64,000 nucleotides of DNA, from assembly GCA_001247695.2 (NCBI GenBank), contig LGRX02034679.1, positions 1-64,000 on the forward strand, given 5' to 3'. Below, in pieces: positions 236-22,543 of the stretch. The first letter of the stretch is position 1, and each line of letters opens with the position of its first letter. Source of the DNA: Cymbomonas tetramitiformis (Eukaryota > Chlorophyta > Pyramimonadophyceae > Pyramimonadales > Pyramimonadaceae). The notes beneath the pieces are model-generated. The model saw only the letters and a list, made by a program, of their open reading frames with translations. It searched no databases and was not told where the DNA came from. The translations under genes and the position numbers were made by a program.

Positions 236-263
236 CCCTAACCCTAACCCTAACCCTAACCCT
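236..263 (+). repeat. Telomere-like (CCCTAA)4 microsatellite inside the element A reading frame
   Basis: Four perfect CCCTAA units plus CCCT. This is the TTAGGG-type telomere repeat read on the C-rich strand. It is translated in the polyprotein frame as an Asn-Pro repeat. The unit is six bases, so gain or loss of units keeps the frame. Element B has no equivalent run. Confidence 0.9.
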
Positions 264-4371: not shown

Positions 4372-4810
4372 ATCGACAGGACTGGAAGTTCCGGGCGGAC
4401 ATGTTCGACTTCTTGAGTCAAGAATATGGACCCTTCGAGGTGGACGCCTGTTGCGACTTGGGAGGAAAGAATCGTCAGGTCAACCGCTACTGGACGGACT
4501 GCTTGAAGGAAAACTGGCGAGGGTTGAACGTCTGGTGTAATCCTCCCTTCTCCTCCAACCATTTGACCATCGAGGCCGTACTGAGGAAATATGTGGAAGA
4601 ATGGCGTCTGGACCCTGAGAATACTTCAGCTCTCTTCGTCCTTCCTGACTTTCAATCTCGCATGCCACAGTGGCGGCAGTTGTTCAGATCTGCGGGAATG
4701 AGAGTGGAGTACATTATTCCTACCCATGACGCTCAAGGAGAACCTGTGCAGATGTTCGCCGCCCCGGATGGAGCCCTTCTGGATCTTCCTTGGCCCCTGC
4801 TAGTGGTGTA
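4372..4810 (+). other. Phage-type DNA N6-adenine methyltransferase-like domain in pol A
   Basis: The domain sits between RNase H and the integrase zinc finger. It shows a 'VDACCD' acidic motif, an N-rich segment and a 'WCNPPF' motif. NPPF/NPPY is the catalytic motif IV of amino-methyltransferases, and this arrangement is typical of the phage Dam-like family (small enzymes found in phages and prophages). The same domain is in element B at the same place. Activity is inferred, not shown. An AdoMet-binding motif I is less clear, as is usual for this compact family. Confidence 0.7.
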
Positions 4811-6705
4811 CGCCCCGCCAGCTCGACAGCGTGTCAAGCGGGAAAGGAAAACGAGTTCCCCCCCTCCTATCGTGCGTACTCGAGAAGCGGCCAGCGTTCG
4901 AGACCTGCATCAGCAGATATCAGGAGGCCAGTTCCTCAAAGCGCTGCAAGCGGAATATGGGCGACCTGGTCCCCTCCAGACTTTAAGGAAGGAAATCCAA
5001 GAAGCTCCGCATCAACGCACTCGTGACTTCTGCGTAGTGGGAGATGTGTTGTGGAGGGTGAGCGCTGGGCGCTATCAGTTGGTACTGGGAGAAGATTCAC
5101 CCCTCCGTGAGGTAGTACTGCAAGAGGCGCATGCATCTGTTTCAGCTGGACACGCGGGCAGGGACAAAACTCTGGAACGAGTACTGCGACGCTTCTGGTG
5201 GAAAGGGGCAGCAGAAGATGTGGGACGCTGGGTTTCATCTTGCACTATCTGTCAAGCGGTGCGACCGAGAAATTCCTACCCGGATGGATTGCTGAACCCA
5301 CACACTATTCCTACGCGACTATGGCAAGTGGTCAGTGTGGACTTTGTTACTGGACTGCCAGTCACGGCGCGGAATCACGATGCCTTTGCTACTTTCACAT
5401 GTAAGCTCAGCAAAATGGTTCACATCATCCCGTTGAACTTCCAGGACAGCTCCTCTGAGGTTATCGCTCGAATCTACTTCGACCACATCTGGAAACTACA
5501 TGGCACCCCTATGAAGATTGTCTCTGACCGCGACCCTCGTTTTCAGGATGCTATGTGGAAGGAATTGATGAGACTTATGGGAACTAAAGTGGCCTCCACC
5601 ACGCCTTACAACCCTCGTTCGGACGGACAAGCTGAACATACCAACCGCGTGGTAGAAGACATGCTAAGGTCCTTCGTAGGCAGCAATCCAGAGGACTGGG
5701 ATTTGTGGTGTGCCAACGTAGAGTTCGCCATAAACGATACGCGGAGCGATGTAACCGGCTTTACCCCGTTTGAGTTGGTCTTGGGGCACTCGCCTATGTC
5801 GCAACTGGACTTGTTCCTGCAAGCGGCTGCTGGACAACACTCCAAGCGTAAGGGTGGAGAAGGTACGGCACACGAGATGGCTAGTAAATTCGCGGCTCAA
5901 CTAGAGGACGCCCGCACTAAGCTAGAACTGGCACAGCAACGCCAGCGACATCAGTTTGACCAGCGTCACACCGCCAAATCCTTTCAGTTGGGAGACTTGG
6001 TCTGGGTAGATGCCAAGCATCTCACGGAAAATATCATGAACCGCGAATCCTTCAGGAAGCTGGGACCTCGCTGGCACGGGCCCTTACCCATCACCGAGAG
6101 GTTCTTCAGCGACCAGCAGCGAGAGCTACCCGAAATTGACAGAGGTGCTCCGGTGGCTTACCGGCTCAAGTTACCCCCTAAATGGCGTATCCACGATGTT
6201 TTTGCGCAGCATCGCCTCAAGGAATACCGCACCGCGGATGAAGCCTTTGCGCTGCGTCGACAAATACCTACTCCTGCCAAGGTTCTCGTGGATGGACAAT
6301 CCCAGACCCATGTGTCTAAGATTCTGGCTCGAAGAGTGAAACCTATGAAAGGAGGCAAGGAAGTAGAAGAATTTCTGGTTCGCTGGACTGGGTACTCTAA
6401 CGCTCATGACTCCTGGAAGACCCGTGAGTCGTTGAACTACGGGGGTGAACTCGAACAGCTCACGGAGTTCGAACACCTGAGACTATCACGAGAAGGACAA
6501 GCCCGGGAAAAAGCCTTACAGGAGGTCAGAATGCAGCGGAAGCAAAGGCGGGAACGCGTCGGAGCTTTAACTTTCCTGGACACCTCTGATGAAGTAAAAC
6601 TCACTTCTCTGGACAACTGCCTACCTTGGGAACAATACTGTCGCTCCGCTGACGCCTTTGTGACGCATCTAGCTCTTCTGGGCTCTGGGGTCTCGACACG
6701 CGAGT

Positions 6706-7350
6706 TGCGACTACTAGTCCTTTTCAGTGGTACAGGAAGTGTGGAGAGAAGTTTCATGTCATGTTATCCGAAGAGCACTGTGGTCACCGTCGATCATGAT
6801 CCTCGCTGGCAACCTACCTACGCTGAGAAGGTTCAGGACTGGGACTTCAAGCGTTATGCACCTGGTTACTTTGACGTCATCTGGGCTAGTCCACCGTGCA
6901 CCGAATACAGTCAGGCTAAGACCACTGGGGTGCGACAACTGCGACAGGCTGATGCTTGTGTACGCCGAACGCTCCAAATTTTTGACTTTCTCAAACCCCA
7001 GCATTGGTTTATGGAAAATCCGATGGGCAGGTTTCCTTTTGCGCTGCGATTTCGACCCGTAGTTCGCCGGTTACCTACCCCGTTGTATTGCTCTTACTGT
7101 ATGTATGGTACTGGCTATCGCAAGCCTACTTGCATCTGGACGCAGTCGCCTCCTCCAGTGGATCTACGGTACTGCACGATGGATACTCCTTGTCTTCACC
7201 AACAGACTCTGGGATCACATCCGGAAACTGCTCAACTGGGACCTCATCCAGGGCAACAAGGAGCGGGAGTTTCCACTGCTGTATACCCTCTGCCCGCTGG
7301 ATTGCTTCGTCAACTCTTCGAGCACCTGTTCGATCAGAAAAGCATATCAC
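6706..7350 (+). other. C5-cytosine methyltransferase-like C-terminal domain in pol A
   Basis: Motif I (VLFSGTGSVER, AdoMet binding), motif IV (ASPPCTEYS, with the nucleophilic Cys of the Pro-Cys pair) and a motif VI variant ENP in place of the usual ENV are seen in the right order. The ENP variant and the following segment with KPT and W resemble phage-encoded cytosine methyltransferases more than host DNMT1/3. In this copy the last 60 residues differ from element B and lack its closing segment, so the extreme C-terminus may be altered. Confidence 0.72.
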
Positions 7351-7436
7351 GCATCCATAAGCATGGCTGATCTGTGTCTGGATCTTAGCTGCTGTACAAA
7401 TGACTCTGAGTTATCATCTCTTTGTACTAACAAGCT

Positions 7437-7456
7437 AAGAGGGGAGGAGTTGTGCC
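7437..7456 (+). promoter_or_regulatory. Polypurine tract and predicted start of the 3' LTR of element A
   Basis: Thirteen purines (7437-7449) are followed by TTGTGCCAGG. Element B has the same arrangement at 19051-19072 (purine run, then TTGTGCTAGG). In Ty3/gypsy elements the plus-strand primer is a polypurine tract directly before the 3' LTR, and LTRs begin with TG, so the LTR of A is taken to start at 7451. Confidence 0.6.
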
Positions 7457-7502
7457 AGGGAACAATAGCCCGGCCAAGCCATTCGATTGGCATATTGTAT
7501 TT

Positions 7503-8501
7503 ATGCATACTGGGGCAGTGAGATGGCAATGGGCTCGGAAGGGGACTCCCGAGCCATTGACTTCGTACTATGGGGAGCGAAAGCCTGGACTTGATTATAG
7601 CTGGCAGCATATTATCGTACACCCTTCTGGTGCGCTACGCCGCTGGGAGCGTAATAGGGGCGGCGGCTGGTTTCTAGAAGACGCCACTCAGTTGAAGGCG
7701 CCGGTAGCGCCATTCTCATTACCGATTAGCCGCGTTGGGATCGCGTACTGGAATCCGACGATTGTGATTGACGATGACGAATATCATGGAATTCCCTACC
7801 AGGGGCGTAAGCCTACACACTCAGCGTCTACGAACAGTGAAGATTCGGGTACAGGCGCTGTGTCCTGGAGTAAGGAGAAGTTACCAGATTCTGATGACAA
7901 TGATGACGCAGGTGTCACTAACAGTAAGGAGAAGCTACCAGATTCGGATGACAAAGATGACGCGGGTGTCATACATGACATGGACACTGCCAGTCCGAAA
8001 TGGGAGCCAACTTCGCCTGAATATGATGACACCGAGGATGACGTCAGCGAGTTCGATGACTTGGTAGCTGACGATGCTGAAGAACAAGCTGAAGCTCGAA
8101 GGTTGAAGAGACTGGGACTGCAATTGATCATGGATGAGAAGGGTGAACTTCACTGGGTACCAAAGGGCACCTCCCCGACCTCACCTGTTCAGCCCGATGA
8201 TCAGCCTATTACCGAGCAGAAGTCTGAGGCCATATCTGAGGATGCCCCAGCCTCTGTGGTGGAGACTGTTCATGCACCACCGAAGAAACCTTATGGGTCA
8301 GATACTGGATTGACTTCAATGGGTGAGAATAAGGCTGGGGTGTCTGAAGAGACGAAGAGGCAACCTAGGAAATATCCGAGATGTTGGACACATGAGTATA
8401 TAACTCAATTGAAGTATTCCATAAGAAGTGACAGTGATGAAGAAGAAGGGCTTGACGTGGCTCCTCGTAGGAAGAAAGCAAAGATCAGCAAGGGACAATG
8501 A
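7503..8501 (+). CDS. Hypothetical acidic protein encoded just 3' of element A's polypurine tract
   Basis: About 332 codons from the first ATG in frame; the frame is open from 7431, so a non-ATG start is possible. The N-terminal third is rich in Trp, Arg and Gly (WQW, GGGW) and looks folded. The middle has two near-identical copies of a 21-residue block around SKEKLPDSDD, each with Asp-Asp runs. The C-terminal part is acidic then basic, ending in a nuclear-localisation-like RRKKAK cluster. I do not recognise a family. The ORF lies after the polypurine tract, so it is either inside a long 3' LTR of A or an accessory ORF that mimics that position. Confidence 0.5.
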   Translation: MHTGAVRWQWARKGTPEPLTSYYGERKPGLDYSWQHIIVHPSGALRRWERNRGGGWFLEDATQLKAPVAPFSLPISRVGIAYWNPTIVIDDDEYHGIPYQGRKPTHSASTNSEDSGTGAVSWSKEKLPDSDDNDDAGVTNSKEKLPDSDDKDDAGVIHDMDTASPKWEPTSPEYDDTEDDVSEFDDLVADDAEEQAEARRLKRLGLQLIMDEKGELHWVPKGTSPTSPVQPDDQPITEQKSEAISEDAPASVVETVHAPPKKPYGSDTGLTSMGENKAGVSEETKRQPRKYPRCWTHEYITQLKYSIRSDSDEEEGLDVAPRRKKAKISKGQ

Positions 8502-8758: not shown

Positions 8759-10405
8759 ATTGTAGCCTTGTTCACCCTTGGTCAGGTCGCCGGGTGCTTA
8801 CACCCTTCCAACCAGATCAGGCAGTGCCTGAAGGCAAAGTTCTCGGACGAGGACAGGGTCCTCGGGGCCCAGGTGATTCACAGTCTCACGACGGCCTTGG
8901 CGTCCGTCGCAGAGAGCTGCGCTCGCTGTGGGTGCGGGCACGAGGAGAGCCCGGTGCGTATGTGGGCGTGTCAGGCGAGCGCTAAGAGAAGTGTGGTGGC
9001 GTTCATGAAAAAGGTGTACCTGCCGGTGTGTGGGTTTTGCGCCGCGGACGTGTGGCCCGGTGCTTTCGACCACTTTCCGGCTGTGATGCCACCTCCGATT
9101 CCTAAGGCGGCAGACACACCGGGAGACGGGGGGGGGATGGTCCCTCAACTGGAGCACTCGGAGCCAAACGAGCTTTCGGAGATGCCCGGTGCCGGCAGTC
9201 ATGGTGGTCCTGGTGGCTCGGGGGGCGGTGACCCTGGAGGGCCGGGAGGCCCGGGGAGTCCGGACGAGGACCCTGGCGGCGATGGCGAAGACGGGGATGG
9301 CGACAGCCAGTTCACCTTCTCGTCTTCCTCTCGTTACAGGGAGCCCCGGAGCCATTACAGTCGTAAGGACGAGCAGCACGCTCTCAAGGAGGCCACCAGA
9401 GCCATGGAGAAGGCAGTGGACAAATACCACACAGAGGTGGAGGGGTCGTCCCACGTCTTTGGTCGGCTCCTCCGATTTGTTCGGCAGGTCAGGGAGGTTC
9501 GGGAACTGGAGCCGGTGCGCTACGCCATGGAGATGGCGCGTCTGGGACCACTAGAGAGCGGGGGTGAGGAGAAGGTGTTGTCGGACCACTCCCTGCTGTC
9601 AGAAGTGGCCAGACACTGCTTCGGCAAACTCAGCTCCGAGTACCGCGAGCTTTCTTCGGTGTTGACGGAGGCTCGGGAAGGTAAGAACCTCACCTTGGAC
9701 GTCATAGTGGTTCCCTTGGCGCAGCTGGTGATGCCCGACAAGGGGGAAATGGCGTCGATCGGTCCGTTCCTGCGTCGCGTGCGTCAAAGTCAGGACAGAC
9801 AGACTCGCACGGTCCGCGAGTTCTGGGACGGGGTGCACCTTGCTCACGACATCGTGAGCATGCTGGCTGCCCACGAGCTCACCTCTCCGGTGCCGGAAGA
9901 GGAGCTGCTGGAGATATTCCTTACGGGATTGATACCGGAGATAAGGAGGAAGGTCTTCCTTATAGCCGAGAGGAAAGGCGCTTCGGTTCTGACTCTGAGC
10001 CGGACGGCCAGTAAAGGCCGCCACGAACTCCTGACTTGGGCCATAGAGGCTGAGCGGGAGTTGCGGCAGAGCCAGGATAAGACGAGCCGCTCGGTCCAGC
10101 TGCTGGCCCACGTAGATGTCACGGAGGAGCTGCTAGCCATGGCGACATCCGCTGGCGCTCCGACACCCACAGGGCAACGACTCGGCTCCCCAGAGTACGA
10201 GGGCTGCCGTCTGTGCAAGAGCATGGACCATTATGCCCGCGACTGTCCGCAGGCGAGCCAGCGCCCGAAGGAGTGGGCCAAGTGCCTCCTGGAGGACACC
10301 CTGGCGTTAATAGGGGACGAGTCGGTGGAGGAAGCTTTGGCTGCCATCGGTTTGGATTTTGTCCAGGAGGACGCTCCCCAGCCCGGGGCGTCCTCCCCGC
10401 AGTAA
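8759..10405 (+). CDS. gag: Gag polyprotein of element B, 5' end probably lost
   Basis: The frame opens after a TGA at 8756 and runs about 548 codons to a TAA, with no ATG in the first 65 codons. In order: a Cys-rich N-terminal segment (CARCGCG ... CGFC) that could bind zinc; a Gly/Pro/Asp-rich linker (about 9190-9300); a helical capsid-like region (about 9370-10080) of the retrotransposon gag type; and a CCHC zinc knuckle C-X2-C-X4-H-X4-C (CRLCKSMDHYARDC) near 10207-10248. The knuckle binds RNA and is diagnostic of gag. The 3' end overlaps pol by 193 nt in the -1 frame. Confidence 0.8.
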   Translation: MVALFTLGQVAGCLHPSNQIRQCLKAKFSDEDRVLGAQVIHSLTTALASVAESCARCGCGHEESPVRMWACQASAKRSVVAFMKKVYLPVCGFCAADVWPGAFDHFPAVMPPPIPKAADTPGDGGGMVPQLEHSEPNELSEMPGAGSHGGPGGSGGGDPGGPGGPGSPDEDPGGDGEDGDGDSQFTFSSSSRYREPRSHYSRKDEQHALKEATRAMEKAVDKYHTEVEGSSHVFGRLLRFVRQVREVRELEPVRYAMEMARLGPLESGGEEKVLSDHSLLSEVARHCFGKLSSEYRELSSVLTEAREGKNLTLDVIVVPLAQLVMPDKGEMASIGPFLRRVRQSQDRQTRTVREFWDGVHLAHDIVSMLAAHELTSPVPEEELLEIFLTGLIPEIRRKVFLIAERKGASVLTLSRTASKGRHELLTWAIEAERELRQSQDKTSRSVQLLAHVDVTEELLAMATSAGAPTPTGQRLGSPEYEGCRLCKSMDHYARDCPQASQRPKEWAKCLLEDTLALIGDESVEEALAAIGLDFVQEDAPQPGASSPQ

Positions 10406-13400
10406 AGGGCGCGGGCCCCGTCACTGCGGGGTCAGGGGGACAAAAGGGCCCCGCGCCGGCGTCCACAGCGATGCAGGTGCTGCATGATAGGTGGAGAAGG
10501 TGTGGGAGACACCTTAGTGGCAGCGCCAGGCGCCACCTCAAGAGCCAAAGTCGAGTCGAGAGGTATGAGCAGGAAGGTTTAGACATGCTAGCCGCCACCC
10601 GCACGGAAAGCCCAGAGCCTCCTGAGCGGGAACAGGTCGAGCAGCGCGTCCAAAGAGAGCAGGCAAACTTCTGGAAGTCCGCCAGAACCCCAGCAACCGC
10701 CTCAGTTCCGCGTCCCGAGGAGCCGTGGGAGCTGCTCTGTTGGATCACCGGTGCGGACACCCGGGGTAAAAACCGGTCGAGCCACACAGTTGAGCCACGG
10801 GCAGTCTACCAACAGCACCTGGAGAACCAGGGGTCGGATGTTGCGAGAGTTCGCGGGCACTGGAAGTTCAGAGCTCAGCGTTTACCCCCCAGAGTTAGGA
10901 AAGCCTTTCAGGCCCAGCAGCCAAGTGCTCGCCTGCGTTCCGCCATCAGGGCGCTAGAAAGGTATCTAAAGCTGGAAGAGTCAGAGGTCCGGCCGGTCAA
11001 GTCCCTTGCGCTTTGGAGGGCAGGGCAAAGGCGGATGAGCCAGAAGCTTGGACCCACGACTAGTAAGCCCCAGTTGAATCGAGAAGAGTTAGATAAGCGC
11101 TTGAAGCGGCTCGTCAGGGTGCGCGAGTTCAATCGCCGACGCAAAGCCATCTTGGATCAGGAGTTCGGACGGTTTGTTCGCGTTGCCAAACCCAAGCCTG
11201 CCGAGGGAGAAGAACTCTCACCACCAGAGAGAACTTCAAAGCCCAGTCGGCCGTGGTTGACCCGAAGCAGGGCTCGCCAGGCTTTGGGCCCGAAACGCAG
11301 ACCATGGCTGACTCCTGAAGACAAGGCGCTTCGAACCTCTCGATTGCAGCGCAGGTACGAGTTGGAGGGTAGGGACCCGGCTTCTACCTCAACAGAACGC
11401 CATGCGGACTTCCACGCCTTCGTAAAGGAGGAGTTGGAAAGGGAGAATAGGGAACTTCAGCAAGACAATGAGCTGATGCACCGGGACGAGCAAGTCAGAA
11501 AGCACATAGCGGCTAAACTGGCTGCAGCGTCAGTCCAAGTCGCGGTGTCCCCCCCAGACTTCCCAGAGCGCAGCGCAGTTCAGAAAGCAGTCGCCATCGG
11601 CCTGCTAGCGGACGCGTGTACTTACTGCCTCCCGGACTGTGACTCCGACGCAGAAACGTCAGTCACCCGCCTGGACTGCATAATGCAGGACGGCGATATC
11701 AGTCCGAGCTGGTGTGAGTCCCTGGCAGCGGTGTCCTCGATGGGAGCGCGCCCGAGGAGTTTCGACAGGCACAGTCGCACACCGACGTTGTTGCTGTTTT
11801 GGGCCTGGATTGCGGGCGTCAGAGTCAAGGTGTTAGTGGATTCGGGAGCATCCACCAATATCATCGCAAAGAGTACACTGCAGAGGCTCTCCGGCGTCAA
11901 GCCGGTGCGCCACGAGCAAGCCATGCGGGTTCGAGTGGCTGACGGCACCACATATGATGCTAATTCCTGCATCAGGCCCAAGCTCCTTGCTGAGACGTCA
12001 AAGGGGTCTTACGGCCAGCAGGTTGAGCTTCGGGTAATGCCACTCGACCTCAAGGTGGATGTCATCCTGGGGGGTCCTTGGCTGGCGAACCTTTCCCCGG
12101 TTACGCTGGATTATAAGAACTGGGGTTCGGTCCGGTTCACCAAGGGCAGGGAAGAGGTCGTCATCACCGGCTGTTCGCCGGGGTCACCGGACCCCAGTCG
12201 GTCCAAGGACACGGCAATGGCACTGGTACAGGGAGTCCTTTTGAGCCAACGTCGGGCTCGCCGGGACCTGCGGACCCTCCGAAACAGAGAGGAGCAGGCT
12301 TTCGTCGTCTACCTCGGCCCCGATGGGACTTTTGGCGCGTTGGCCTGCAACAAGGGGGGGGGAGACTCCGACGAAGATTCCCCCAACGATGTTGTAGCAG
12401 GCCTAGCGTCAGAACCCTCCTCCGGGTCCGAGGATAGTGAAGTCAGCGTGCGTCCCAGCGCAACGGTGCCGGACGGAGCTGAGGAGTCTGAGGGGCCGGG
12501 AGGGTTGGTCTCGGACAGTTCCGAGTCCGGCTACAGTGACGTGGAAGGAGCGTGTCATTTGCAGAGAGTAGGGGCGGTGGTCGAGGATATTAGGCCACAG
12601 GGATTTGCGAGTACGGTCGACGAGGCCGGGGATCACCCTGACCCTCTCAGCTTTTTCGCTAGCAAACAGGAGGCGAACGGAGCATTTGCGTTGCTTCCAC
12701 CAGCGGTGCGTAGGCAGGCGATAGAGGATCACGCGGCCGGGAAGCCACCCACCTGGCACGCGCAGGCAGCCGCGGCGCTCCAGCAGGGCCGGGGTCTGGT
12801 CGCGGAGCGACGACCCCGAGCACGGCGTAAGCGAGTGCGTTGGCGTGACCAGGTCGCAGCAGTCGGTCAGCCTGGTGCTGAAAGTGGCCCCTCCACCGAG
12901 CAGCCACCGGGACCAAAAGTCCCCACTGTCCCGAGTCCTCAGAGTCAGAAGTCGCGAGCCTCGGCACCAGTCCCGCCGCCAGCTCCGCAGACCACAGACC
13001 CGCCGGTACCGGCCGCCCCGCCAGGTACTACCTCGCCGCCAGCCCCACAGACTGCTCAGGCCTCCCCGGAACCGCCGGAGGACGAGATAGACGAGACGGT
13101 GTCGCCGGAAATCTGGCAGCAGCTTAGGGACCTGGAAAAGGAGTTCGCAGATGTCATTTGCACAGAGCTGCCGGAATCAGTCCAGTCAAGGGAATTCAAG
13201 TCCGGCGTCCGGCTCAGGCCAGATTGGAATGGGAACGCCTTGCACCGGCGAGGGTACAAGCTGTCGCAGGAGGAGTTGCGGCAACTCCGGCAACAGCTAG
13301 ATGAGCTCTTAGCCAAAGGGTACATACGACCCTCGGCCTCTCCGTGGGGCTGCCCTGTGCTGATGGTCCCCAAGCCGAGTAATCCCAAGGAGTTGCGTCT

Positions 13401-16400
13401 AGTCATTGACTACAGACAGATCAATGAGATCACAGTCAAGGACAAGTACCCCCTCCCGGATGTCCAGAGTCTCTTAGATGATCTACAAGGGGCTACCGTC
13501 TTCTCTACGATGGATGCCCTTTGGGGATTTTGGCAGGTCCCTATGAAAGCAGAGGACGTGGAGAAAACCGCAATGACTACGCACTTTGGAGCGTACGAGT
13601 GGTTGGTCATGCCTATGGGATTGTCAAACTCCCCAAGTACCTGGCAAAGGATGATGCAACAGTACCTCGGGCACCTACCCTTTTGCAGAGTATTTGTAGA
13701 TGACATCATGATTTTCTCGGCTGAGGTTCCGGGTAAGAGCGCCCATGAGGTACACCTCGACCACCTCCGCCAGGTCCTGGAGGCATGCCGAAAGAATTCA
13801 GTCTACCTCAAAAAGTCGAAAGTCAAATTGTGCAAGCGATCAGTCCGGTTCCTAGGGCATGTGGTGGATCGGGATGGATGTCGTCCACAGCAGGATAAGG
13901 TTGCGTCGGTACGCGATTGGCCAGACCTAGAAACTGTCACACACGTGCGACAGTTTCTGGGCATGTGTGGCTTCTACCGGAGGTACATCCAGAACTTCGC
14001 AGATATCGCGTACCCGTTGACCCGCCTCACCAAATCCGGCGTGGACTGGACCTGGGGCGAGAATGAAAAGGCAGCATTTAAACAGCTAAAAACTGCCTTG
14101 ATCTCCTCCCCAGCCTTGGCCCTACCCGATCAAAAGGGTGCAGCAGACGGTTCCAGACCCTTCTTTGTGCAGACAGATGCCAGTGGAGTAGCACTAGGGG
14201 GTGTACTCATGCAGGATCAGGGACGAGGCTTACAGCCCTTGGCCTTTGAAAGCCGGCAGTTCTCCAGCGCAGAGCAGAACTATCACGCTGGGGAACGGGA
14301 GCTTTGTGCCATCCATCACTGCACCACGGTCACCTGGAGACATTATCTGATTTTCACATCATTTAAGCTCATGGGAGACCATAAACCCCTTCAGTGGCTC
14401 TTCGCCCCAGCTAGGGAGCTCAGCCGACGTCAGGCTCGCTGGTACGAGGACTTGGTAGAGGTAGGAGTCCATCAGATGGAGCACGTGCCAGGGCGCTGTT
14501 TAGTAGTACCAGACGCGCAGTCCCGGCGACCAGACTATCAGGAAATGTCAGCCAGAGAAGGGTTGAAGGAAAAAGGGATTGTGGATCGCGCCACGGATGG
14601 GCCCAGAGACTCCGCACCGGCAGGCAAGGGGTCCGAAGAGGACGAGGATCCTACCTCTGTCCTCGGGGCAGTGGATTGCACCACCGATGGATCTGATGGA
14701 CCCGAGTACTCTGAGCCGAAAGGCAAGAGATGCGAAGGGGACGAGGATCCCACATCTGTCTTAGGCGCCACCTTCGAGTATAGTGATTCCGAGGACGAGT
14801 CCTTCCCTCCCACCAGTCCAGCACCGGTCATTGGTGAGCTCACCCATCTGAATGGGCTCACGTGGGTAGAGTCGCCGGCCCTTTGGCTGGACGCAGCTGC
14901 CACCCTAGCAGTAGGCGAGAAATCCTTGAGGGATGCCGAATCGCTAGCAGTCATGACCAGAGCAGACCGAGCTAGGGAACAGGCCACAGCAGAAGTCCAG
15001 AGTCACCCGAAGTTCCCCCACCCTGAGGCCCAGAGTCATCCAAAGGCAGCCGGAAAGGTACCTGAGCCCGTTAAGCCCCCAGAAAGTAGCTCCCACTACG
15101 ACCAGGTCGTAGATCGCCAGGACTGGAAGCTGATCAGGGAGCGCTTTGAGGAGATAGCAGCCCAGTACGGGGTGTTTGACGTTGACGCGTGTTGCGACTC
15201 CATGGGCGTTAACCGGCAGGTTGACACCTATTGGACCGATTGCTTGAAGGAAAAGTGGCGCGGGAAACACGTTTGGTGCAACCCCCCTTACACGAAGGAT
15301 TCAGACTTGATAGAAAGAATTCTTCGGCATTTCCTTGCTGAGTGGCGCGCCGATCCGGAAAACACCTCGGCGATGTTCCTTCTGCCAGACTATGACGCCC
15401 CCTGGAGACGGTTGATTCACCCCAAGTATGGGCTTCATCCGGTCAAAGTCTTTGACACGAAAGACGAAAAAGGTCGTCCCAACCACCTCTTCGAGTCCCC
15501 TGATGGAGGTCGACCCCCGCTGCGCTGGCCGGTCCTTCTGGTGTGGGCCCCAGCAGCCAGCAGGGCAAAGCCCCGAGCGCCGCCTGCGCGAAAGGACAGT
15601 GAGGCAGAACCCGACGAGCCTTTAGTCACTACAGGGGTTGCAGCAAGGGCCAGGGCAGCATCAGGCCCACTGAAGGCTGATGAGTTCGTCCGCGCCTTGC
15701 AAGCGGAATACGAACGCAGCCAGTACCTCAGCTCGTTGAAGGAGGAACTGATCGCAGCCCCACATCAGAGGACAGACACATTTCGCATGGTAGACGACAT
15801 GATATGGCGAGTGGCAGAAGGGCGGTATCAGCTAGTGCTAGCTCAGGATTCCCCCCTCAGAGAGCTGGTGATGCGCGAAGCACACGAGTCCCCAGCAGCA
15901 GGGCACACAGGAAGGGATAAGACACTGGACAGAGTATCCCGTCGCTTTTGGTGGCCACGCATGAGCAAGGATGTCACCGACTGGTGCAAATCCTGCGTTG
16001 TGTGCCAACAGACCCGGCCACGCAACGGGTATCCAGACGGTCAGCTTAACCCCCTGCAAGTCCCAGTAAGACTGTGGCAAGTGGTTAGTATCGACTTCGT
16101 CACTGGGCTGCCCCGCACAGAGCGAGGGTACGACGCGTTTGCTACCTTCACGGACAAGTTGTCCAAGATGGTGCACGTAGTTCCCATGCTTTACGCTGAC
16201 AGCTCAGCTGCACAGATCGCGCGCATGTATTTCGACCAAGTGTGGCGTTTGCACGGCGCTCCCATGAAGATCGTCTGTGATCGGGACTCCCGCTTCAGGG
16301 ATGAGATGCATCTCGAGCTACATCGGTTGATGGGAGTCCAGGTTGCCTCTACCACGCCGTACCACCCTCAAGGTGATGGGCAGGCAGAGCACACAAACCA

Positions 16401-18342
16401 CACGGTCGAACGCATGTTGCGCGCGTACGTCGACGCCAACCAGCACGATTGGGATTTATGGTGTACCCCGGTCGAGTACGCCATTAATGACTCTCGTTCC
16501 GCCGTCACGGGATTCACCCCTTTTGAACTGACGTATGGTCACGCTCCGGCCTCTCAGCTGGACTTCTTCGTGGAGGCAGCACTTGCATCACGGAGAGGCC
16601 GAGCTAAGGGGGGGAGGGGCGCAGCAGTAAAAAAGGGTACAGCCCACGAGACAGCCCGCCAGTTTGTTCGCCAGTTGCAGCTCGCTAGGGAGAAGCTGCT
16701 CTTAGCTCAGCAGCAACAGATCGCCCAGTACGACGCGCGTCACAGGTCCAGGAGTTACGCAGTAGGCGATGAGGTTTGGGTGGATGCCACGCACCTCACC
16801 CAGCCGGGCGACCGCGGGTTGCACAAGAAATTGCTTAAGAAGCGCCTTGGGCCCCTTCGGGTGCTGGAAGTCTTTCACAGCGACAGGCAGATGGCCCTTC
16901 CCGCGAGCGATAGAGGCGCACCGTCGGCCTATAGGTTGCAGACGCCTAAGCAGTGGAAAGTGCACGATGTGTTTACCGTGGACCGGCTTTCGCCAGTAGA
17001 GTCGGGCAGCCGCTTCGTTGAGAGAGCTAAGGAGATTCCCCCTCCTCCGTTGGACGTCAGCGGGCGCAAGGAAACCCACGTCGAGAGGGTGGAGCGTTCG
17101 CGCACGCGCCAGCGCCAGGGCAGGAGGTGGACAGAGTACCTGGTCAAGTGGACAGGAATGCCCCGCAGTGAGAACGAGTGGAAGACCCGAGAGGATCTGG
17201 AGTGGGACGGAGCCGGCAGGCCCGGTGTTCCCAACCGAGCGTTGTTGGAGTTTGAGAGGATCGAGGCTAAGAGAGTGGAGCGAGAGAAGCTTAGGGTCCG
17301 TAAGAGACGCGACGAGTCCGCAGGAGCGGTATGGACCACGCTATCGGAGGAGCTCAAGGTAGACGGAGCAATGCCATGGGTGCCAGAGGAGAGGTTTGAT
17401 GAGGAAGTAGGAACTTTCGCGAGAGTATCTGCTCAGAGCACCCTGCCGCCAGTCAACGGAGCCGCAGCACTTGAGAAGGAGCCAGTCGGCCAGTCTAAGA
17501 TTCTTGTATTGTTTTGTGGGACCGGGTCAGTCGAGAGGCAGTTCACTAAGCAATTTCCCAACAGCGAAGTAGTTGCTGTAGACATTCAGCCCAAGTGGGG
17601 CCCCACACATTGCGAGGATATCATGCGATGGGACTATCGACAGTTCAGACCAGGACACTTCGACGTAGTCTGGGCTAGCCCACCTTGCACAGAGTACAGC
17701 CAAGCGAAGACGGTAGGCATCCGAGATTTGCGTGCTGCGGACAGGCGAGTTCGTAGGACATTGGAGATCATCCGGTACTTGAGGCCCGAAGCATACTTCA
17801 TTGAGAACCCGAGGGGAAGAGAGCCCCACGGGTTGCACACGCGTCGCTGCATGAGCAATCTACCAGCTCCGCACCTCGTCACGTACTGCAAATACGGGAC
17901 CGCATACAGGAAGCCCACGCACATCTGGACCAACGTTCCGTTGCGCACACCCTTGCGAGTATGCGATTCCGATACGCCTTGCGAGTTCTTCCGGCAGCAC
18001 GGTAGGCACGAGAAAGTAGCGCAAGGAGGGCGCGCGATGAGAGCCGGAGGTGTGTTCGCGAAGGGCATGGGAGCGCGAGAGAATTTGTATGGGATTCCGT
18101 CAGCACTGTTAAAACAGCTTTTCCACAACCTGACCCTACATGAAGAGGTGCATGCGTTCCTGTCTGAACTGCTTGTCAGGGAGGATCTGAGCGAGATGAG
18201 CGTTTTAGTCCAGTCAGCTGTTGTTGAGAGTGACCCGCCCGAGTTTGAGCCGGAACCGATAGCGTTAGCGGGAGTGCGAGCGGAGGTGACGATCATACCT
18301 GAGGGCGGATGGGAATCTGACGCGAGTGGTCTTAGCGATTGA
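10213..18342 (+). CDS. pol: Pol polyprotein of element B: PR-RT-RH-N6A MTase-like-IN-chromodomain-C5 MTase-like
   Basis: A 2,709-codon open frame without any stop. Approximate residues counted from 10213: aspartic protease DSGAS at 543; RT 1020-1230 with FVDD at 1159; RNase H TDASG at 1320; adenine methyltransferase-like domain 1633-1780 with CNPPY at 1689; integrase HHCC finger 1882-1935 and DDE residues at 1959, 2021 and 2059; chromodomain 2288-2342; C5 methyltransferase-like domain 2428-2636 with FCGTGS, SPPC (2489) and ENPRG (2530). It is in the -1 frame relative to gag, overlapping 10213-10405, so expression probably needs -1 frameshifting. I found no textbook slippery heptamer in the overlap. 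The first 300 codons after the overlap are basic and unassigned. About 170 residues of acidic linker (14590-14830) carry two copies of a GPE/EYSEP-type block. Confidence 0.88.
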   Translation: MQEHGPLCPRLSAGEPAPEGVGQVPPGGHPGVNRGRVGGGSFGCHRFGFCPGGRSPARGVLPAVKGAGPVTAGSGGQKGPAPASTAMQVLHDRWRRCGRHLSGSARRHLKSQSRVERYEQEGLDMLAATRTESPEPPEREQVEQRVQREQANFWKSARTPATASVPRPEEPWELLCWITGADTRGKNRSSHTVEPRAVYQQHLENQGSDVARVRGHWKFRAQRLPPRVRKAFQAQQPSARLRSAIRALERYLKLEESEVRPVKSLALWRAGQRRMSQKLGPTTSKPQLNREELDKRLKRLVRVREFNRRRKAILDQEFGRFVRVAKPKPAEGEELSPPERTSKPSRPWLTRSRARQALGPKRRPWLTPEDKALRTSRLQRRYELEGRDPASTSTERHADFHAFVKEELERENRELQQDNELMHRDEQVRKHIAAKLAAASVQVAVSPPDFPERSAVQKAVAIGLLADACTYCLPDCDSDAETSVTRLDCIMQDGDISPSWCESLAAVSSMGARPRSFDRHSRTPTLLLFWAWIAGVRVKVLVDSGASTNIIAKSTLQRLSGVKPVRHEQAMRVRVADGTTYDANSCIRPKLLAETSKGSYGQQVELRVMPLDLKVDVILGGPWLANLSPVTLDYKNWGSVRFTKGREEVVITGCSPGSPDPSRSKDTAMALVQGVLLSQRRARRDLRTLRNREEQAFVVYLGPDGTFGALACNKGGGDSDEDSPNDVVAGLASEPSSGSEDSEVSVRPSATVPDGAEESEGPGGLVSDSSESGYSDVEGACHLQRVGAVVEDIRPQGFASTVDEAGDHPDPLSFFASKQEANGAFALLPPAVRRQAIEDHAAGKPPTWHAQAAAALQQGRGLVAERRPRARRKRVRWRDQVAAVGQPGAESGPSTEQPPGPKVPTVPSPQSQKSRASAPVPPPAPQTTDPPVPAAPPGTTSPPAPQTAQASPEPPEDEIDETVSPEIWQQLRDLEKEFADVICTELPESVQSREFKSGVRLRPDWNGNALHRRGYKLSQEELRQLRQQLDELLAKGYIRPSASPWGCPVLMVPKPSNPKELRLVIDYRQINEITVKDKYPLPDVQSLLDDLQGATVFSTMDALWGFWQVPMKAEDVEKTAMTTHFGAYEWLVMPMGLSNSPSTWQRMMQQYLGHLPFCRVFVDDIMIFSAEVPGKSAHEVHLDHLRQVLEACRKNSVYLKKSKVKLCKRSVRFLGHVVDRDGCRPQQDKVASVRDWPDLETVTHVRQFLGMCGFYRRYIQNFADIAYPLTRLTKSGVDWTWGENEKAAFKQLKTALISSPALALPDQKGAADGSRPFFVQTDASGVALGGVLMQDQGRGLQPLAFESRQFSSAEQNYHAGERELCAIHHCTTVTWRHYLIFTSFKLMGDHKPLQWLFAPARELSRRQARWYEDLVEVGVHQMEHVPGRCLVVPDAQSRRPDYQEMSAREGLKEKGIVDRATDGPRDSAPAGKGSEEDEDPTSVLGAVDCTTDGSDGPEYSEPKGKRCEGDEDPTSVLGATFEYSDSEDESFPPTSPAPVIGELTHLNGLTWVESPALWLDAAATLAVGEKSLRDAESLAVMTRADRAREQATAEVQSHPKFPHPEAQSHPKAAGKVPEPVKPPESSSHYDQVVDRQDWKLIRERFEEIAAQYGVFDVDACCDSMGVNRQVDTYWTDCLKEKWRGKHVWCNPPYTKDSDLIERILRHFLAEWRADPENTSAMFLLPDYDAPWRRLIHPKYGLHPVKVFDTKDEKGRPNHLFESPDGGRPPLRWPVLLVWAPAASRAKPRAPPARKDSEAEPDEPLVTTGVAARARAASGPLKADEFVRALQAEYERSQYLSSLKEELIAAPHQRTDTFRMVDDMIWRVAEGRYQLVLAQDSPLRELVMREAHESPAAGHTGRDKTLDRVSRRFWWPRMSKDVTDWCKSCVVCQQTRPRNGYPDGQLNPLQVPVRLWQVVSIDFVTGLPRTERGYDAFATFTDKLSKMVHVVPMLYADSSAAQIARMYFDQVWRLHGAPMKIVCDRDSRFRDEMHLELHRLMGVQVASTTPYHPQGDGQAEHTNHTVERMLRAYVDANQHDWDLWCTPVEYAINDSRSAVTGFTPFELTYGHAPASQLDFFVEAALASRRGRAKGGRGAAVKKGTAHETARQFVRQLQLAREKLLLAQQQQIAQYDARHRSRSYAVGDEVWVDATHLTQPGDRGLHKKLLKKRLGPLRVLEVFHSDRQMALPASDRGAPSAYRLQTPKQWKVHDVFTVDRLSPVESGSRFVERAKEIPPPPLDVSGRKETHVERVERSRTRQRQGRRWTEYLVKWTGMPRSENEWKTREDLEWDGAGRPGVPNRALLEFERIEAKRVEREKLRVRKRRDESAGAVWTTLSEELKVDGAMPWVPEERFDEEVGTFARVSAQSTLPPVNGAAALEKEPVGQSKILVLFCGTGSVERQFTKQFPNSEVVAVDIQPKWGPTHCEDIMRWDYRQFRPGHFDVVWASPPCTEYSQAKTVGIRDLRAADRRVRRTLEIIRYLRPEAYFIENPRGREPHGLHTRRCMSNLPAPHLVTYCKYGTAYRKPTHIWTNVPLRTPLRVCDSDTPCEFFRQHGRHEKVAQGGRAMRAGGVFAKGMGARENLYGIPSALLKQLFHNLTLHEEVHAFLSELLVREDLSEMSVLVQSAVVESDPPEFEPEPIALAGVRAEVTIIPEGGWESDASGLSD
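15113..15550 (+). other. Phage-type DNA N6-adenine methyltransferase-like domain in pol B
   Basis: Same position as in element A, between RNase H and integrase. Conserved blocks shared with A: RQDWK, FDVDACCD, NRQV, YWTDCLKEKWRG, VWCNPPY, PENTSA and LLPD. Catalytic motif IV is NPPY here and NPPF in A; both are used by N6-adenine/N4-cytosine methyltransferases. The blocks are conserved while the flanking linkers differ freely between A and B, which argues for selection on the domain. Substrate and activity are inferred. Confidence 0.75.
17488..18130 (+). other. C5-cytosine methyltransferase-like domain in pol B
   Basis: Motif I VLFCGTGSVER, motif IV WASPPCTEYSQAK with the catalytic Cys, motif VI variant IENPRG, a downstream HIWTN segment and a C-terminal GIPSALLKQL segment. 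The overall shape is that of phage-type C5 methyltransferases without a long target-recognition insert. It follows the chromodomain directly, so the enzyme would be carried wherever the integrase-chromodomain protein binds chromatin. C5 methyltransferases captured by retrotransposons are known in some algae and dinoflagellates. Confidence 0.75.
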
Positions 18343-18358: not shown

Positions 18359-18672
18359 CGGGAAGAGCGGTGGCTCCAGCCTTGGCGAGACCAGGCGGCA
18401 GGTGAGAACCTGGGTAATCCATCCGAGAGAGCAGTGGCTCTAGCCTCGGCACAGCCAGGCAACAGGTGGAAATCTGTATAATCCATTTGAGCAGTGGCTC
18501 TAAGCCTTGGTATGACCAAGCGGCAGGTGAGAACCTGGGTAATCTATCCAAGTGAGCAGTGGCTCTAGCCTCGGCGCGACCAGGCAACAGGTGGAAATCT
18601 GTATAATCCATTTCACGAGAGCATTGGCTCCGGACCTGGCACGACCGGGCAGCAGTTGGAGATCTGGGTAAA
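18359..18672 (+). repeat. Roughly 62-bp tandem repeats in the 3' untranslated region of element B
   Basis: About five copies of a unit around GAGCAGTGGCTCTAGCCTCGG followed by a CAGGTG(A/G)(G/A)AA block. Copies alternate between two types (ending AACCTGGGTAATC or AAATCTGTATAATCC), giving a 125-bp higher-order period. The array lies between the pol stop and the polypurine tract. From there to 19050 the DNA is non-coding. Confidence 0.75.
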
Positions 18673-19050
18673 AGCTCTAGCACTCCGAGGAGGCGGTGAA
18701 GGTTTAAAACCTTTCCTCCGGGCCGGCATCCCGAGAACTGTCAGGTAATTGGCAAACCTATTGTCATCCCCTGTAAGTGTACCGTGTTGGGAGGTTTAAA
18801 ACCTTGAGCGTGGTAATGGATGTGAAACCTTGAGCCTTGGGGGAGCCTGGTAGTGCAGATGGCAGACCGGTGAGAGGCCGACCCTTGTGCTTAAGAGGTC
18901 GATCTCCTTATTGCGGTGTGTCTTGGGAAGTGTAATGTCATCCCAGACAACAGGCGGCTGAGACCTGTATAATCATTCAGAGCAACAGTAGAAGATCTGT
19001 ATAAAAACTTTACTGGTCCGACGTGGTCAGCGTGGACGTGACCTTCCCTA

Positions 19051-19072
19051 AGGGGGGGGGAGTTGTGCTAGG
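19051..19072 (+). promoter_or_regulatory. Polypurine tract and start of the 3' LTR of element B
   Basis: An A followed by nine G and AG, then TTGTGCTAGG. It shares GGAGTTGTGC(C/T)AGG with the same position in element A. Predicted plus-strand primer site; the LTR would begin at 19064. Confidence 0.6.
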
Positions 19073-19550
19073 AGGCAAGCACAAGAGCAAGAAAAACGGC
19101 TAAGTATAAAACGCAGGAGTACTCAGTACGGAGTACAGTAGGACCGATCAGAATGATGTTGATGTGAGGTGCCTAGACTGTTGTACGGAGTACTCAGTAC
19201 AGTTGAGTTATGGAAAGAGTTCCTGAATGTATAAGAACTCTAAGAGTAACCAGTTTCGGAGAGATGAACTGAACTGAGAATTGTAACATAAAAAGTAAGA
19301 GCCGTATCCGCTGTATATTGTGTATTGAAAGCATACACTTGAAAGCATAAGCATAACTATTAAGATTTACGAAACCGAAGTCTTGTAGTTGACCAATCGT
19401 AAGCATACCTCGTGCGGTCGTTTAATAAGTGTAGAATAGTATAAGTCCGAAACCGTAAAGAAGAGAAGAAGTCAAGTGTAGACTCCTACATAGAGGAAGT
19501 AGTCATAATGACTTGTTTACTCATTGAAGTCTTACTCTTTAAGTGGAAAT
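19064..19550 (+). repeat. Predicted 3' LTR of element B with a TATA-like box
   Basis: About 490 bp of non-coding sequence after the polypurine tract. It contains TATAAAA at 19105-19111, a plausible LTR promoter, and two copies of GGAGTACTCAGTAC-type palindromic sequence (19116-19140 and 19175-19200). The right end is uncertain; it must lie before the AT-rich, G-hairpin-bearing block that starts near 19558. No matching 5' copy is in the window. Confidence 0.45.
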
Positions 19551-19562
19551 TTTTCATTAAAA

Positions 19563-19692
19563 AAGGGAGGTGGGAGGTGGGAGGTTGGCTTTTATAGAAA
19601 GTATTTTAGAAATTAAAAATAAATATTGAATTGTTTTTATCATCATATGAAAATCTTTTCCGAAAAGTAACACCTCCCACCACCCAACCTCC
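19563..19692. terminator. G-rich/C-rich inverted repeat downstream of the helicase gene
   Basis: GGGAGGTGGGAGGTGGGAGG (19565-19584) on the left, an AT-rich stretch of about 85 bp, and CACCTCCCACCACCCAACCTCC (19670-19691) on the right. The arms can pair into a long hairpin, and the G-run arm alone has G-quadruplex potential. It lies just past the 3' end (19719) of the minus-strand helicase gene. A like structure follows the next minus-strand gene. Giant viruses and virophages use 3' hairpins for mRNA end formation, so a terminator or polyadenylation role is inferred. Confidence 0.5.
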
Positions 19693-19718
19693 GTTTTTAT
19701 TATTTAATGAAGTAGTTG

Positions 19719-22368
19719 TTAAATAAACACTTGTTCTCTTGAGAGTTCTCTTTCTCTAAATTTTATTCCTATCTTATAAGTCACCCAAGTCTTGTTCTCT
19801 TTCACCTCAATTGACTTATAGCCTTTCTCATTCAATTCGATTGTGAAATTCTCCTTTGAGACCGTGGTAGTGTTCTTGTCATTAGAATAGGTTGTAAACA
19901 ATGTATTAAAAGGTGTACACCATTCTTCGATAAATTGTTTCTTTTTTTGCTTTATCGGAAATATTTAGTACAAACTTCCCCTTCTTTGTGGGATGGTTTA
20001 CCAAAAGATTATTGAAATCTCCATACGTCTTATGTTCGAGTGTTTCATAACAATTGCCATCTTCATCCGTGTCGCTATCGGTGTATACATTGAAGTGTTG
20101 TTTGACCCACGCCAACCCTCTTGTTTCTTCGTTGACGACTTGCATTGTTTCGTCCGATATCACTTGAGGCACACTTGGTGCTTGCTTCCAATTGTTTTTG
20201 TAGTAATCACATACAAGATAAATGAAAGCATCATATACATCTTGTTCCTTAATCCAATTCTTTATGTTTGGGTCGTTTGGAAAGAACTCTTCGTTTACCA
20301 TTTCACACTCGGGATTGCTATGCCTTGTTTGTCTAAATACTCTTACTCTATCGGGAATTGATTTGTCATTATCGGAGAATTCAGGTATGTCGTTTGAAAA
20401 AATGATTATTGTACTTCGATTGAAGAATGAAACCTGAGATTTATATAGGTCTCTTGCATTTATTTCATCACCTCCACTTATCAAGGTTCTAATAGTATGT
20501 GCATTAATCTTGACACACTCATTATAGCTCTTTCTTGAGCCCGCGCCTTGATGAGTTTCTTTTACCATAGGTATCTCATTGCAAACCGTTAGTCTCTTGT
20601 CGTGAAATGCTTTCGCCCATTTCCATTGAGTTTCCTCTTCGTTTTGAACATTTGCTTTTCGAATAATATTTCCTCCATTCAAAGTTCCGTAGAATCCCTT
20701 TTTATCACCTAACGCGTTTCTCAACAAGTCGGTCAATGTTCCTTTCCCGCTTTTTGTTTTGCCCAAAATGGTGGGAAGCACTCTATCACAATAATGACCG
20801 GCAATGCCTCTCGCTATGGTAGCCAATGCATAATTCACTTTTTCTTCGTTATTATAAGGTAAGTCAAATAGCTTATACTTTACTTCTTTGGCTATCTCGC
20901 TTTTGTCGTCGCACACATATTCCCTATCAATGATAGAGGTGAAATAGAATTCGGGATTTGCTTCTAATATTCGGTGGTTCTTCAAATCGAGCACACTGTT
21001 TTTGAACAATAGATAACCAATTTGTTTACTAAAGTCGAACTCCTTAATCTTTGTGCAAAAGGCGGGCAATGCATCCCTCAAGTCACCATAGCATTTCTGC
21101 AAATCCCACTTTACTTCAGTGTCATCCATATGATGAAAATATTCTTGAGACTTTTGGTACACCATTTTCTTAATGTCTTCGTCATCATTCATCCATAACC
21201 CTTTCTCCTTGCAATATATGTAAAGACCGCTTTCGGTCATTAACACATTGTCATCATTCATTTCCAAAAACACCTTGGCAAATCGTTTCCCGCCAAACCG
21301 ACCATCGTGTTTCACGTGCAAAGCTATATGGTCCGGTACATACTTCTTCAAGGCGATATGAAACTCGTTGTCTCCTTCTTTCAATTTCAAATGCTCTTGT
21401 TTAATTTTCACATTAAAATCCAAGACGCGTTTTATCTCATTCATCATTATAATGTCAAAATCATTGTTGGTATTATTTTGTCTTTCAAAGTAAATCGCAT
21501 CAAACTTGGTGGCTCTTACGATTTGATTGTTAGTTTGCAAGACATTAAACATTACCACGTTCATCTTCTTCTCAATTTCTTGAATGTAAAGGGAAAGTGC
21601 ACCAAACTCGGGATTGCTCTTCTTCTCTTTCCCTTTTTGTGATTCAATGTGTGCCTTTTGTGCTATATGATAATTTGGGAAGTGATTTTCGGCGTTGACC
21701 GCTACATACTTCATCAATGTCATATATGCTTTGATAAATGGCAAAGGCGACTTTGATTCTTGTTTGTATTTTGCTACCCAAGTTTCAAATGTCCCATTAA
21801 ACGTTATGATAATCATAAGATCTTTTGCCTCCTTTTGTGTGACGTTGTATTCCTTCTCAATCTTTTTTAATTGTGAGTCCCTATGAGCGATGTATGCCTC
21901 GAGAGGTATCAATTTCGTTTCACATCTTAGATACTTCCTACACAATTGATACAAAATTGTCGGTGCACAATTTTCAATATCACATTCGTTTATATTGTTG
22001 TTCAACACGTGTCTCAATATCTTTTTATTCAATTGTTGAAATGAGTAGCTTCCCAATTTCTTTGTGTGCTCATACATACGACCATAGCCATATTTCTTTG
22101 TTTTGAATGTGTGTTCTTTGGCACCCATTTTCAACATTAGTTTACATCTATCAATGTCATTCTTTGATAACAAATCATTCTCCTTGTCAATATTTGAAAT
22201 AGTCTTCAAAATAGTATCATCATAGTAAAATTCTTGAATCACTTGTGGTGCTTTGAAATCATAAGTAATGTGTTTATCCATATTGTGCTTTTCTGCTTTA
22301 CTATCATCTTGTTCTTTAAGTGGATTTTTTATTGGTAGTTTGCACATCTTATTATTACAAATATTCAT
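19719..22368 (-). CDS. TV-Pol-like / SF3 helicase (D5-like) replication protein, one 3' frameshift
   Basis: Starts at ATG 22368 and runs 820 codons to 19906. The natural C-terminus continues in another frame to 19719, and the shift falls at a seven-T run (19942-19948; A7 in sense), so the full protein would be about 880 aa. The N-terminal third carries DIENCAPTIL (about residue 120), resembling the catalytic D-x-x-N-x-H/A-P motif of TV-Pol, a family-A-like polymerase domain of virophages and related elements. The C-terminal half is a superfamily 3 helicase: Walker A GKTKSGKGT near residue 538, then IIIFSNDIPEFS as the SF3 sensor-type motif. Expected role: replication of the viral or transposon genome. 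The indel could be decay or an assembly homopolymer error. Confidence 0.8.
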
Positions 22369-22405
22369 TTCTTAAATTGTTTTATCTTACTATCACATTT
22401 AAAAA

Positions 22406-22534
22406 AAGGGAGGTTGGGCGGTGGGAGGTCTTAGTTTTTGGAAAAGTTTTTCTAATAAAGATAAAATATAAGAATATATTTATGTGAGTTTTAAAATACT
22501 TTTTTAAAAAGCCAACCTCCTACCTCCCACCTCC
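22406..22534. terminator. Second G-rich/C-rich inverted repeat, downstream of the Lys-rich small gene
   Basis: GGGAGGTTGGGCGGTGGGAGG (22408-22428) and CCAACCTCCTACCTCCCACC (22511-22530) are separated by about 80 bp of AT-rich sequence. It lies between the stop of the 159-aa gene (22544, minus) and the start of the helicase gene (22368). Position and sequence match the first hairpin, suggesting a shared gene-end signal. Confidence 0.5.
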
Positions 22535-22543
22535 CTTTTTTCT

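Follow-up and report, generated by a model that had tools for sequence, protein, structure and literature searches.

The window analysed here comprises positions 1 to 64,000 of contig LGRX02034679.1 from the chlorophyte alga Cymbomonas tetramitiformis (GenBank assembly GCA_001247695.2) and holds, on its forward strand, two retroelements, designated A and B, whose pol polyproteins carry two methyltransferase-like domains of different types. By domain content, element B (8759 to about 19558) belongs to the Ty3/gypsy chromoviruses. Its gag-like open reading frame (ORF; 8759–10405) encodes one CCHC zinc knuckle (about 10202–10252; zf-CCHC 19.5 bits, just below the cutoff of 20.8), and its pol ORF, open over 2753 amino acids (10081–18342), lies in the -1 frame relative to the gag-like ORF and overlaps it at 10081–10405. 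In the translated stretch 10213–18342 (P0001), Pfam yields the order protease, reverse transcriptase (RT), RNase H, Dam-type domain, H2C2 and DDE integrase, SH3, chromodomain and C5. The aspartic protease lies at 11806–12078 (Asp_protease_2, 9.4e-7), RT at 13366–13863 (RVT_1, 3.4e-30; best solved match Ty3) and RNase H at 14152–14457 (Pfam), followed by a Dam-type N6-adenine methyltransferase-like domain with an NPPY motif at 15100–15567 (Pfam core 15112–15318). The integrase, with an H2C2 zinc domain and a DDE core, occupies 15850–16368 (rve below cutoff; PFV integrase E 9e-20), its Tf2-1-like C-terminal SH3 domain 16765–16998 (22.8 bits, below the cutoff of 30) and the chromodomain 17077–17202, and a compact C5-cytosine methyltransferase-like domain of about 210 amino acids, with GTGSV, SPPC, ENP and KPTHIWT motifs, closes the polyprotein at 17482–18162. 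The protease-RT-RNase H-integrase order with a DDE integrase is that of Ty3/gypsy elements, and the chromodomain C-terminal to the integrase is that of chromoviruses (31.4 bits in B and 29.4 bits in A; Pfam cutoff 25.1). No tyrosine recombinase family appears among the Pfam matches of A and B, which encode a DDE integrase instead and are thus not DIRS elements.

Profile searches and predicted folds assign the two additional domains to distinct methyltransferase families. PF05869 is matched above its Pfam cutoff of 28.1 in both element B (34.0 bits) and element A (38.0 bits), the Dam region of element B matches phrog_111 of the PHROGs collection (E 6.5e-13), and TIGR01712 matches the domain weakly (27.8 bits; cutoff 97). 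The C5 region of element B matches phrog_757 (E 1.8e-17) and phrog_363 (E 2.4e-12), and its predicted structure is a confident, DNMT3/HhaI-like model with DNMT3 as the nearest fold, on which the S-adenosylmethionine-binding, PPC and ENP motifs are all found. Among 21 solved sequences, the C5 profile (alignment A4) matches DNMT2 and DNMT1, but not DNMT3, at E 0.01, and the closest relatives of the domain outside retroelements are viral-type. The pol of element B, as read from these matches, holds two different methyltransferase types, N6-adenine and C5-cytosine. A chance ORF or chance motifs as the source of this pattern are ruled out by the Pfam and PHROGs matches and by the shared layout of element A.

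The pol of element A starts before the window and runs over positions 1–7370 with the same order of domains, identified by Pfam and by alignment with element B: protease, RT, RNase H, Dam (about 4368–4865), integrase, chromodomain (6309–6437) and C5 (6711–7328). From RT through C5 the two elements are identical at 838 of 1704 positions (49%), and this divergence under one pol order indicates that the window holds two separate, old families of identical layout. Over 1477 amino acids, element A shares 96.6% identity with the product of CYMTET_48393 (P0018), and the C5 of element B is 99% identical to the Cymbomonas tetramitiformis proteins CYMTET_12107 and CYMTET_32376, identities that exclude a contaminant or bacterial source for the window. 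In three Cymbomonas gene models other than element B itself, the C5 is 96–99% identical to that of element B, which suggests recent copying.

The arrangement recurs well beyond the window. The Dam part of P0001 identified 27 related proteins and the C5 part 25, for a total of 46 distinct relatives that form, with P0001 and element A, a set of 48 pol proteins. At the profile threshold, 41 of these contain Dam, 38 contain C5 and 31 contain both; ten lack C5 and seven lack Dam, several of them being truncated gene models. The dual-methyltransferase pol is hence more than one element: by sequence, it is an old lineage with many members. A genome-contig scan produced 13 candidates, one of them a relative: L117, a contig filed under a Verrucomicrobiaceae metagenome-assembled genome (TMED86), which encodes RNase H, integrase, chromodomain, Dam and C5. 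Its Dam and C5 score 195.8 and 299.1 bits with the retroelement profiles; with Pfam, Dam reaches 27.4 bits, just below the cutoff, and PF00145, the C5 family profile, gives no match at E 0.01. This is presumably a eukaryotic contig that was binned wrongly. The pol alignment A6 matched 41 stretches in a scan of viral contigs, with no relative among them. Two EukProt proteins of Prorocentrum minimum (P0113, P0120) have C5 domains placed among the retroelement C5s in the tree, no other retroelement domains being detected in either, and the C5 of a Tetraselmis-labelled protein (P0152) is placed among the free-standing C5s. One Cymbomonas gene model, P0012 (CYMTET_39736), joins PCIF1_WW and RNase H to a pol of the family described here and is probably an annotation fusion.

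Two members of the set depart from the common layout. P0032 carries an intact N-terminal C5 (residues 1–216) and, near its C-terminus, a C5 remnant without the catalytic part (11.9 bits in the search of the full set, 16.4 bits on its own); this single case of an intact N-terminal C5 beside a decayed C-terminal one suggests that the element needs one functional C5. P0045, a distant pol with 33% RT identity to element B, places ahead of RT both an N-terminal C5 without motif I and a weak Dam (Pfam 22 bits, cutoff 28.1), and suggests, again from one case, that the C5-Dam pair may have been assembled more than once.

Co-inheritance was assessed on the 24 full-length pols (of 48) in which RT, integrase, Dam and C5 are well covered, leaving out those with no Dam at threshold (P0041–P0047), no C5 or insufficient domain coverage, and retaining P0032. 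Of 21 splits, the RT tree has 17 in common with the C5 tree, 12 with the Dam tree, 13 with the RNase H tree and 16 with the integrase tree, and 500 label shuffles of RT against C5 gave a mean of 0.25 shared splits and a maximum of 2. The lowest pairwise identities among these pols are 41% for RT, 41% for integrase, 43% for C5 and 26% for Dam. The trees of RT, Dam and C5 agree about as well as those of RT, RNase H and integrase, which argues that both enzymes were probably already present in the common ancestor.

The catalytic motifs have been retained to different degrees. The Dam NPP[YF] motif is intact in 36 of the 40 informative rows (41 rows, one of them a gap row), the C5 cysteine in all 36 informative rows (38 rows, two gap rows) and the C5 ENP/ETP motif in all 35 (38 rows, three gap rows), and in an alignment mixing retroelement and free-standing C5s, C69, E108 and N109 are invariant in 60 of 60 rows. 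Since the cysteine is lost in no informative row, and P0032 keeps an N-terminal C5 where its C-terminal C5 has decayed, C5 seems to be the indispensable activity, with the Dam motif lost in a few families. In the comparison of A with B, synonymous sites are for the most part saturated; nonsynonymous divergence (dN) is 0.48 for Dam and 0.53 for C5, compared with 0.55 for the protease, 0.34 for RT and 0.29 for the integrase, and reaches 0.98 in the linker before Dam, 0.68 after Dam and 0.96 before C5. The chromodomain (0.97) has diverged as fast as the linkers, and the methyltransferases more slowly.

Both enzymes have viral-type kin. In the Dam tree, which includes 40 of the 41 retroelement Dams, all 40 lie on one side of a branch separating them from 69 viral rows (SH-aLRT 99); the 80 viral Dam loci kept show 22–43% identity in their best segments, and relatives in named phages, including enterobacterial phages, appear among the 30 listed of 194 records. 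The C5 tree was built with 29 of the 38 retroelement C5s, those of at least 175 residues passing E 1e-10, and, like the Dam tree, contains viral-type relatives but no DIRS Dams or Dnmt3 rows. In a quick tree drawn open, a single clade of 80 rows amid free-standing viral-type C5s takes in 26 of the 29 RT-bearing rows; it also includes three rows labelled free-standing. C5 identity is 27–39% in 36 IMG/VR loci, 29–35% in 11 phage records, including Bacillus phage BM15 and Inoviridae, and as high as about 50% in unnamed metagenome proteins. At L081, a locus with a free-standing viral-type C5, Prim-Pol and RuvB genes adjoin the C5 gene, and none of the seven large ORFs of L082 and L085 has a Pfam match. 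Two viral contigs of 4.6–4.7 kb (L106, L112) encode adjoining Dam-like and C5-like genes, the Dam of L112 reading HPPF instead of NPPF. Capture of the pair as one phage cassette is not claimed: the C5s of these contigs reach only 35–36 bits with the retroelement profile, and their Dams group with the viral rows. Taken together, the identity and viral-type kinship of the Dam and C5 domains are, on sequence evidence, highly probable. An earlier note on this DNA, made from its letters alone, had proposed two methyltransferase types of apparent phage ancestry in one pol; PF05869, PHROGs and the predicted C5 fold bear out the two types in a Ty3/gypsy pol, and viral-type relatives of both were recovered in phrog_757, phrog_111, the phage records, the IMG/VR loci and the trees. 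Catalytic residues, whose absence from most genomic copies would have counted against that proposal, survive in most rows examined, as the counts given above show. For the conjectural uses of the marks that the note put forward (silencing, masking or chromodomain-guided insertion), base composition offers no CpG or palindrome depletion indicative of marking in old copies, and the chromodomain diverges between A and B at the pace of the linkers, unlike the methyltransferases.

The ends of element B and its surroundings are less regular. Past the pol stop lies a tandem repeat array of 64/125-base units (18364–18671), and beyond it, read by eye, a purine-rich tract (about 19048–19060) and the presumed start of the 3' long terminal repeat (LTR; about 19061 on) with a TATA-like stretch (19048–19558 in all). 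A purine-rich tract past the pol of element A (7435–7455, same strand) shows a weak match to 19048–19068, with 90% identity over 21 bases (E 0.17). Beyond pol of element A, an ORF of 356 amino acids at 7431–8501, without any Pfam match, extends past this tract toward element B and may be an extra gene of element A or a remnant. A fragment in two pieces resembling the RT/RNase H part of element A (2901–3865) lies on the forward strand at 25748–26715, with 71–73% DNA identity. No primer site for initiator methionine tRNA rises above chance in the window; in L117, TGGTATCAGA between pol and the next ORF is a candidate, with one match at no more than one mismatch in 65 of 200 shuffles. Where the presumed LTR of element B stops, a 3 kb element begins (19559–22541) that has 69-base inverted ends (84% complementary), a G+C content of 0.35 against 0.60 in element B, and an ORF for a D5_N/DUF5906 helicase-like protein on the reverse strand (19906–22371); this element resembles a small viral or polinton-like sequence that has inserted into the presumed LTR. 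Further along are a non-LTR retrotransposon (LINE; 30657–35496), consisting of an ORF without Pfam match (30657–32732) followed by one with RVT_1 (3.8e-26) and Exo_endo_phos_2 (1.7e-7) matches (32518–35496), repeat arrays within 36000–64000 that lie partly within long ORFs (37618–39356, 40984–41737, 58906–59916 and 60534–61473), and a reverse-strand ORF (62010–63158) that matches Methyltransf_25 weakly (19.9 bits, cutoff 27).

The explanation that we favour, with somewhat better than even confidence, is that of an old Ty3/gypsy chromovirus lineage whose ancestor took two viral-type methyltransferases into pol and whose new copies are self-marked. In this model the ancestor would have acquired, between RNase H and integrase, an N6-adenine enzyme of the phage Dam type and, downstream of the chromodomain, a compact C5-cytosine enzyme. 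The layout and its recurrence, the catalytic motifs, the folds predicted and the joint inheritance with RT can be read from the sequences; the packaging and the marking we infer: Gag-Pol would bring both enzymes into the particle along with RT and integrase, both would act on the new complementary DNA (cDNA) or on the initial integrated copy, and daughter copies would arrive bearing 5-methylcytosine (5mC) and, in most families, N6-methyladenine (6mA). The likeliest gain would be passage through host cells in which unmarked incoming DNA is attacked or silenced, and the next-best the setting of a chromatin state at the new insertion site. Both enzymes are likely to be active in at least some copies; whether their main substrate is the element's own DNA we consider an even question.

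Several observations count against this explanation or parts of it. Because Dam or C5 similarity was the criterion by which relatives were collected, the set is biased toward intact motifs. The Dam NPP[YF] motif is changed in P0024, P0025, P0026 and P0033. PF00145 falls under its Pfam cutoff of 22 in both element B (19.1 bits) and element A (21.4 bits), so that the profile check suggested in the earlier note succeeded for PF05869 and failed for PF00145 alone; six of eight proteins checked (P0041, P0062, P0069, P0083, P0087 and P0120) do pass the PF00145 cutoff. A long viral branch (L037) joins the retroelement Dams, and the retroelement C5 clade has an SH-aLRT of only 87 in the quick tree, with P0041, P0043 and P0046 outside it. 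The pol of element A is interrupted by a single in-frame stop (3582–3584), and neither an LTR pair nor a 5' LTR of element B was found in the window; neither copy therefore need be mobile, and both may be dead. A footprint of self-marking in base composition was sought in A, B and L117 by CpG and palindrome counts, with a negative outcome. CpG observed/expected ratios are 0.80 in A, 0.83 in B and 0.72 in L117, with the window's LINE poorer in CpG (0.61) and the 36–64 kb region at 0.98; four-base palindromes are mostly near expectation and show no outstanding depletion, the lowest in A (GATC 20 against 34 expected, GCGC 40 against 59 expected) not being repeated in B or L117. Lastly, the nearest solved fold to the predicted Dam model is an RNA cap adenosine methyltransferase.

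An activity of the Dam-like domain on RNA (transcript, cap or RNA:DNA hybrid) in the manner of PCIF1, with only C5 marking DNA, is nevertheless unlikely. The sequence family is that of phage Dams, as judged from PF05869, phrog_111 and the weak TIGR01712 match; among viral models, phage Dams (E 1.7e-8) rank above viral PCIF1 (E 2.9e-4), and Pfam finds no PCIF1_WW in P0001 at E 1. Quite unlikely, in turn, is that the enzymes are aimed at others, modifying host chromatin or competing viruses and elements instead of the element's own copies. Cymbomonas contains many endogenous viral elements (PMC10675990), an antiviral role has been proposed for such accessory domains (PMC6338049), and the D5-helicase element directly adjoins element B, but vertical co-inheritance with RT favours a role in the element's own cycle and nothing in the data links the enzymes to viral targets. 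Retention for DNA binding or particle structure, with catalysis incidental, would fit the four rows that keep the domain without Dam NPP[YF]; it is made distinctly improbable by the unbroken conservation of the C5 cysteine in informative rows and of C69, E108 and N109, and by the intact C5 that offsets a decayed one in P0032. Ordinary hitch-hiking of chance cargo in decay, to which the truncated models and the in-frame stop in element A might be ascribed, is scarcely credible given domains retained across RT identities down to 41% and methyltransferase dN below linker dN.

An extension of the self-marking explanation, which must be considered improbable, is that marine-algal retroelements built a two-base self-label from viral methyltransferases more than once, as P0045 might illustrate. 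Such a repeated label would answer host or viral discrimination against unmarked DNA and, if real, would imply a selective pressure on retrotransposon cDNA in a eukaryote resembling that of bacterial restriction. More generally, that a Ty3 pol has kept two unrelated viral-type enzymes together across deep divergence suggests that both marks are of value to the element. The families without the Dam motif and the family with a moved C5 constitute natural mutants for testing why retroelements methylate DNA, in a host alga that is already in culture and has been sequenced. Provided that the enzymes are functional, these elements would also have brought virus-derived writers of 6mA and 5mC into the nuclei of algae.

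The methyltransferases of published retroelements, in the accessible parts of the sources cited here, come singly: adenine enzymes in DIRS, and Dnmt3 or other C5 enzymes in LINE, DIRS and one Gypsy element. No Ty3 pol with both enzymes was found in the literature, weak evidence of absence from a search covering few subscription papers, but closer prior art exists than that note had recognized, in the DAM of DIRS elements and the Dnmt3 of a Klebsormidium Gypsy pol (PMC5890265) and in Cymbomonas scaffolds (PMC5741210). Three scaffolds of Cymbomonas with more than 10,000x coverage have been reported to contain chromodomain, RNase H and cytosine methyltransferase coding regions (PMC5741210); these repeats very likely belong to the family described here, and the accessible description includes neither an adenine methyltransferase nor a whole element. 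Chromoviral pol genes have also been described beside viral elements in Cymbomonas, in a text whose accessible part does not mention "methyl" (PMC10675990), and DNMT3 has been described in Copia and DIRS elements in one whose accessible part does not mention Cymbomonas (PMC12344493).

The free-standing C5s of the phrog_757 kind (L081, Bacillus phage BM15, Inoviridae) resemble the C5 of element B in size, most having about 200–235 amino acids, and in their PPC and ENP motifs, and the closest of them share a K-T-IWT-like stretch with it, but they are single genes. Among retroelements, DIRS elements with a Dam-like domain (PMC5890265, PMC6338049) resemble element B in placing an N6-adenine enzyme within pol, and DCM has been cited in Gypsy and DIRS clades (PMC6338049); DIRS are, however, tyrosine recombinase elements, whereas element B has a DDE integrase (rve, H2C2) and a chromodomain, the Dams being compared here by published description alone. 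SymbioDIRS-Dnmt3 and SymbioLINE-Dnmt of Symbiodinium likewise carry a C5 methyltransferase in a retroelement ORF, but belong to other element classes and, in the DIRS case, to the Dnmt3 type (PMC5890265). A counterpart in class is KnitGypsy-Dnmt3 of Klebsormidium nitens, an algal Ty3/Gypsy pol with an internal C5 methyltransferase that conserves its key residues and is under purifying selection (PMC5890265). Retrotransposon Dnmt3s perform de novo CG methylation, and self-methylation of retrotranscribed DNA has been proposed for them (PMC5890265). In contrast to element B, KnitGypsy-Dnmt3 has, as described, one methyltransferase, of the host-derived Dnmt3 class, and a DIRS-like repeat layout (PMC5890265), whereas element B combines a compact C5 of viral type with a Dam.
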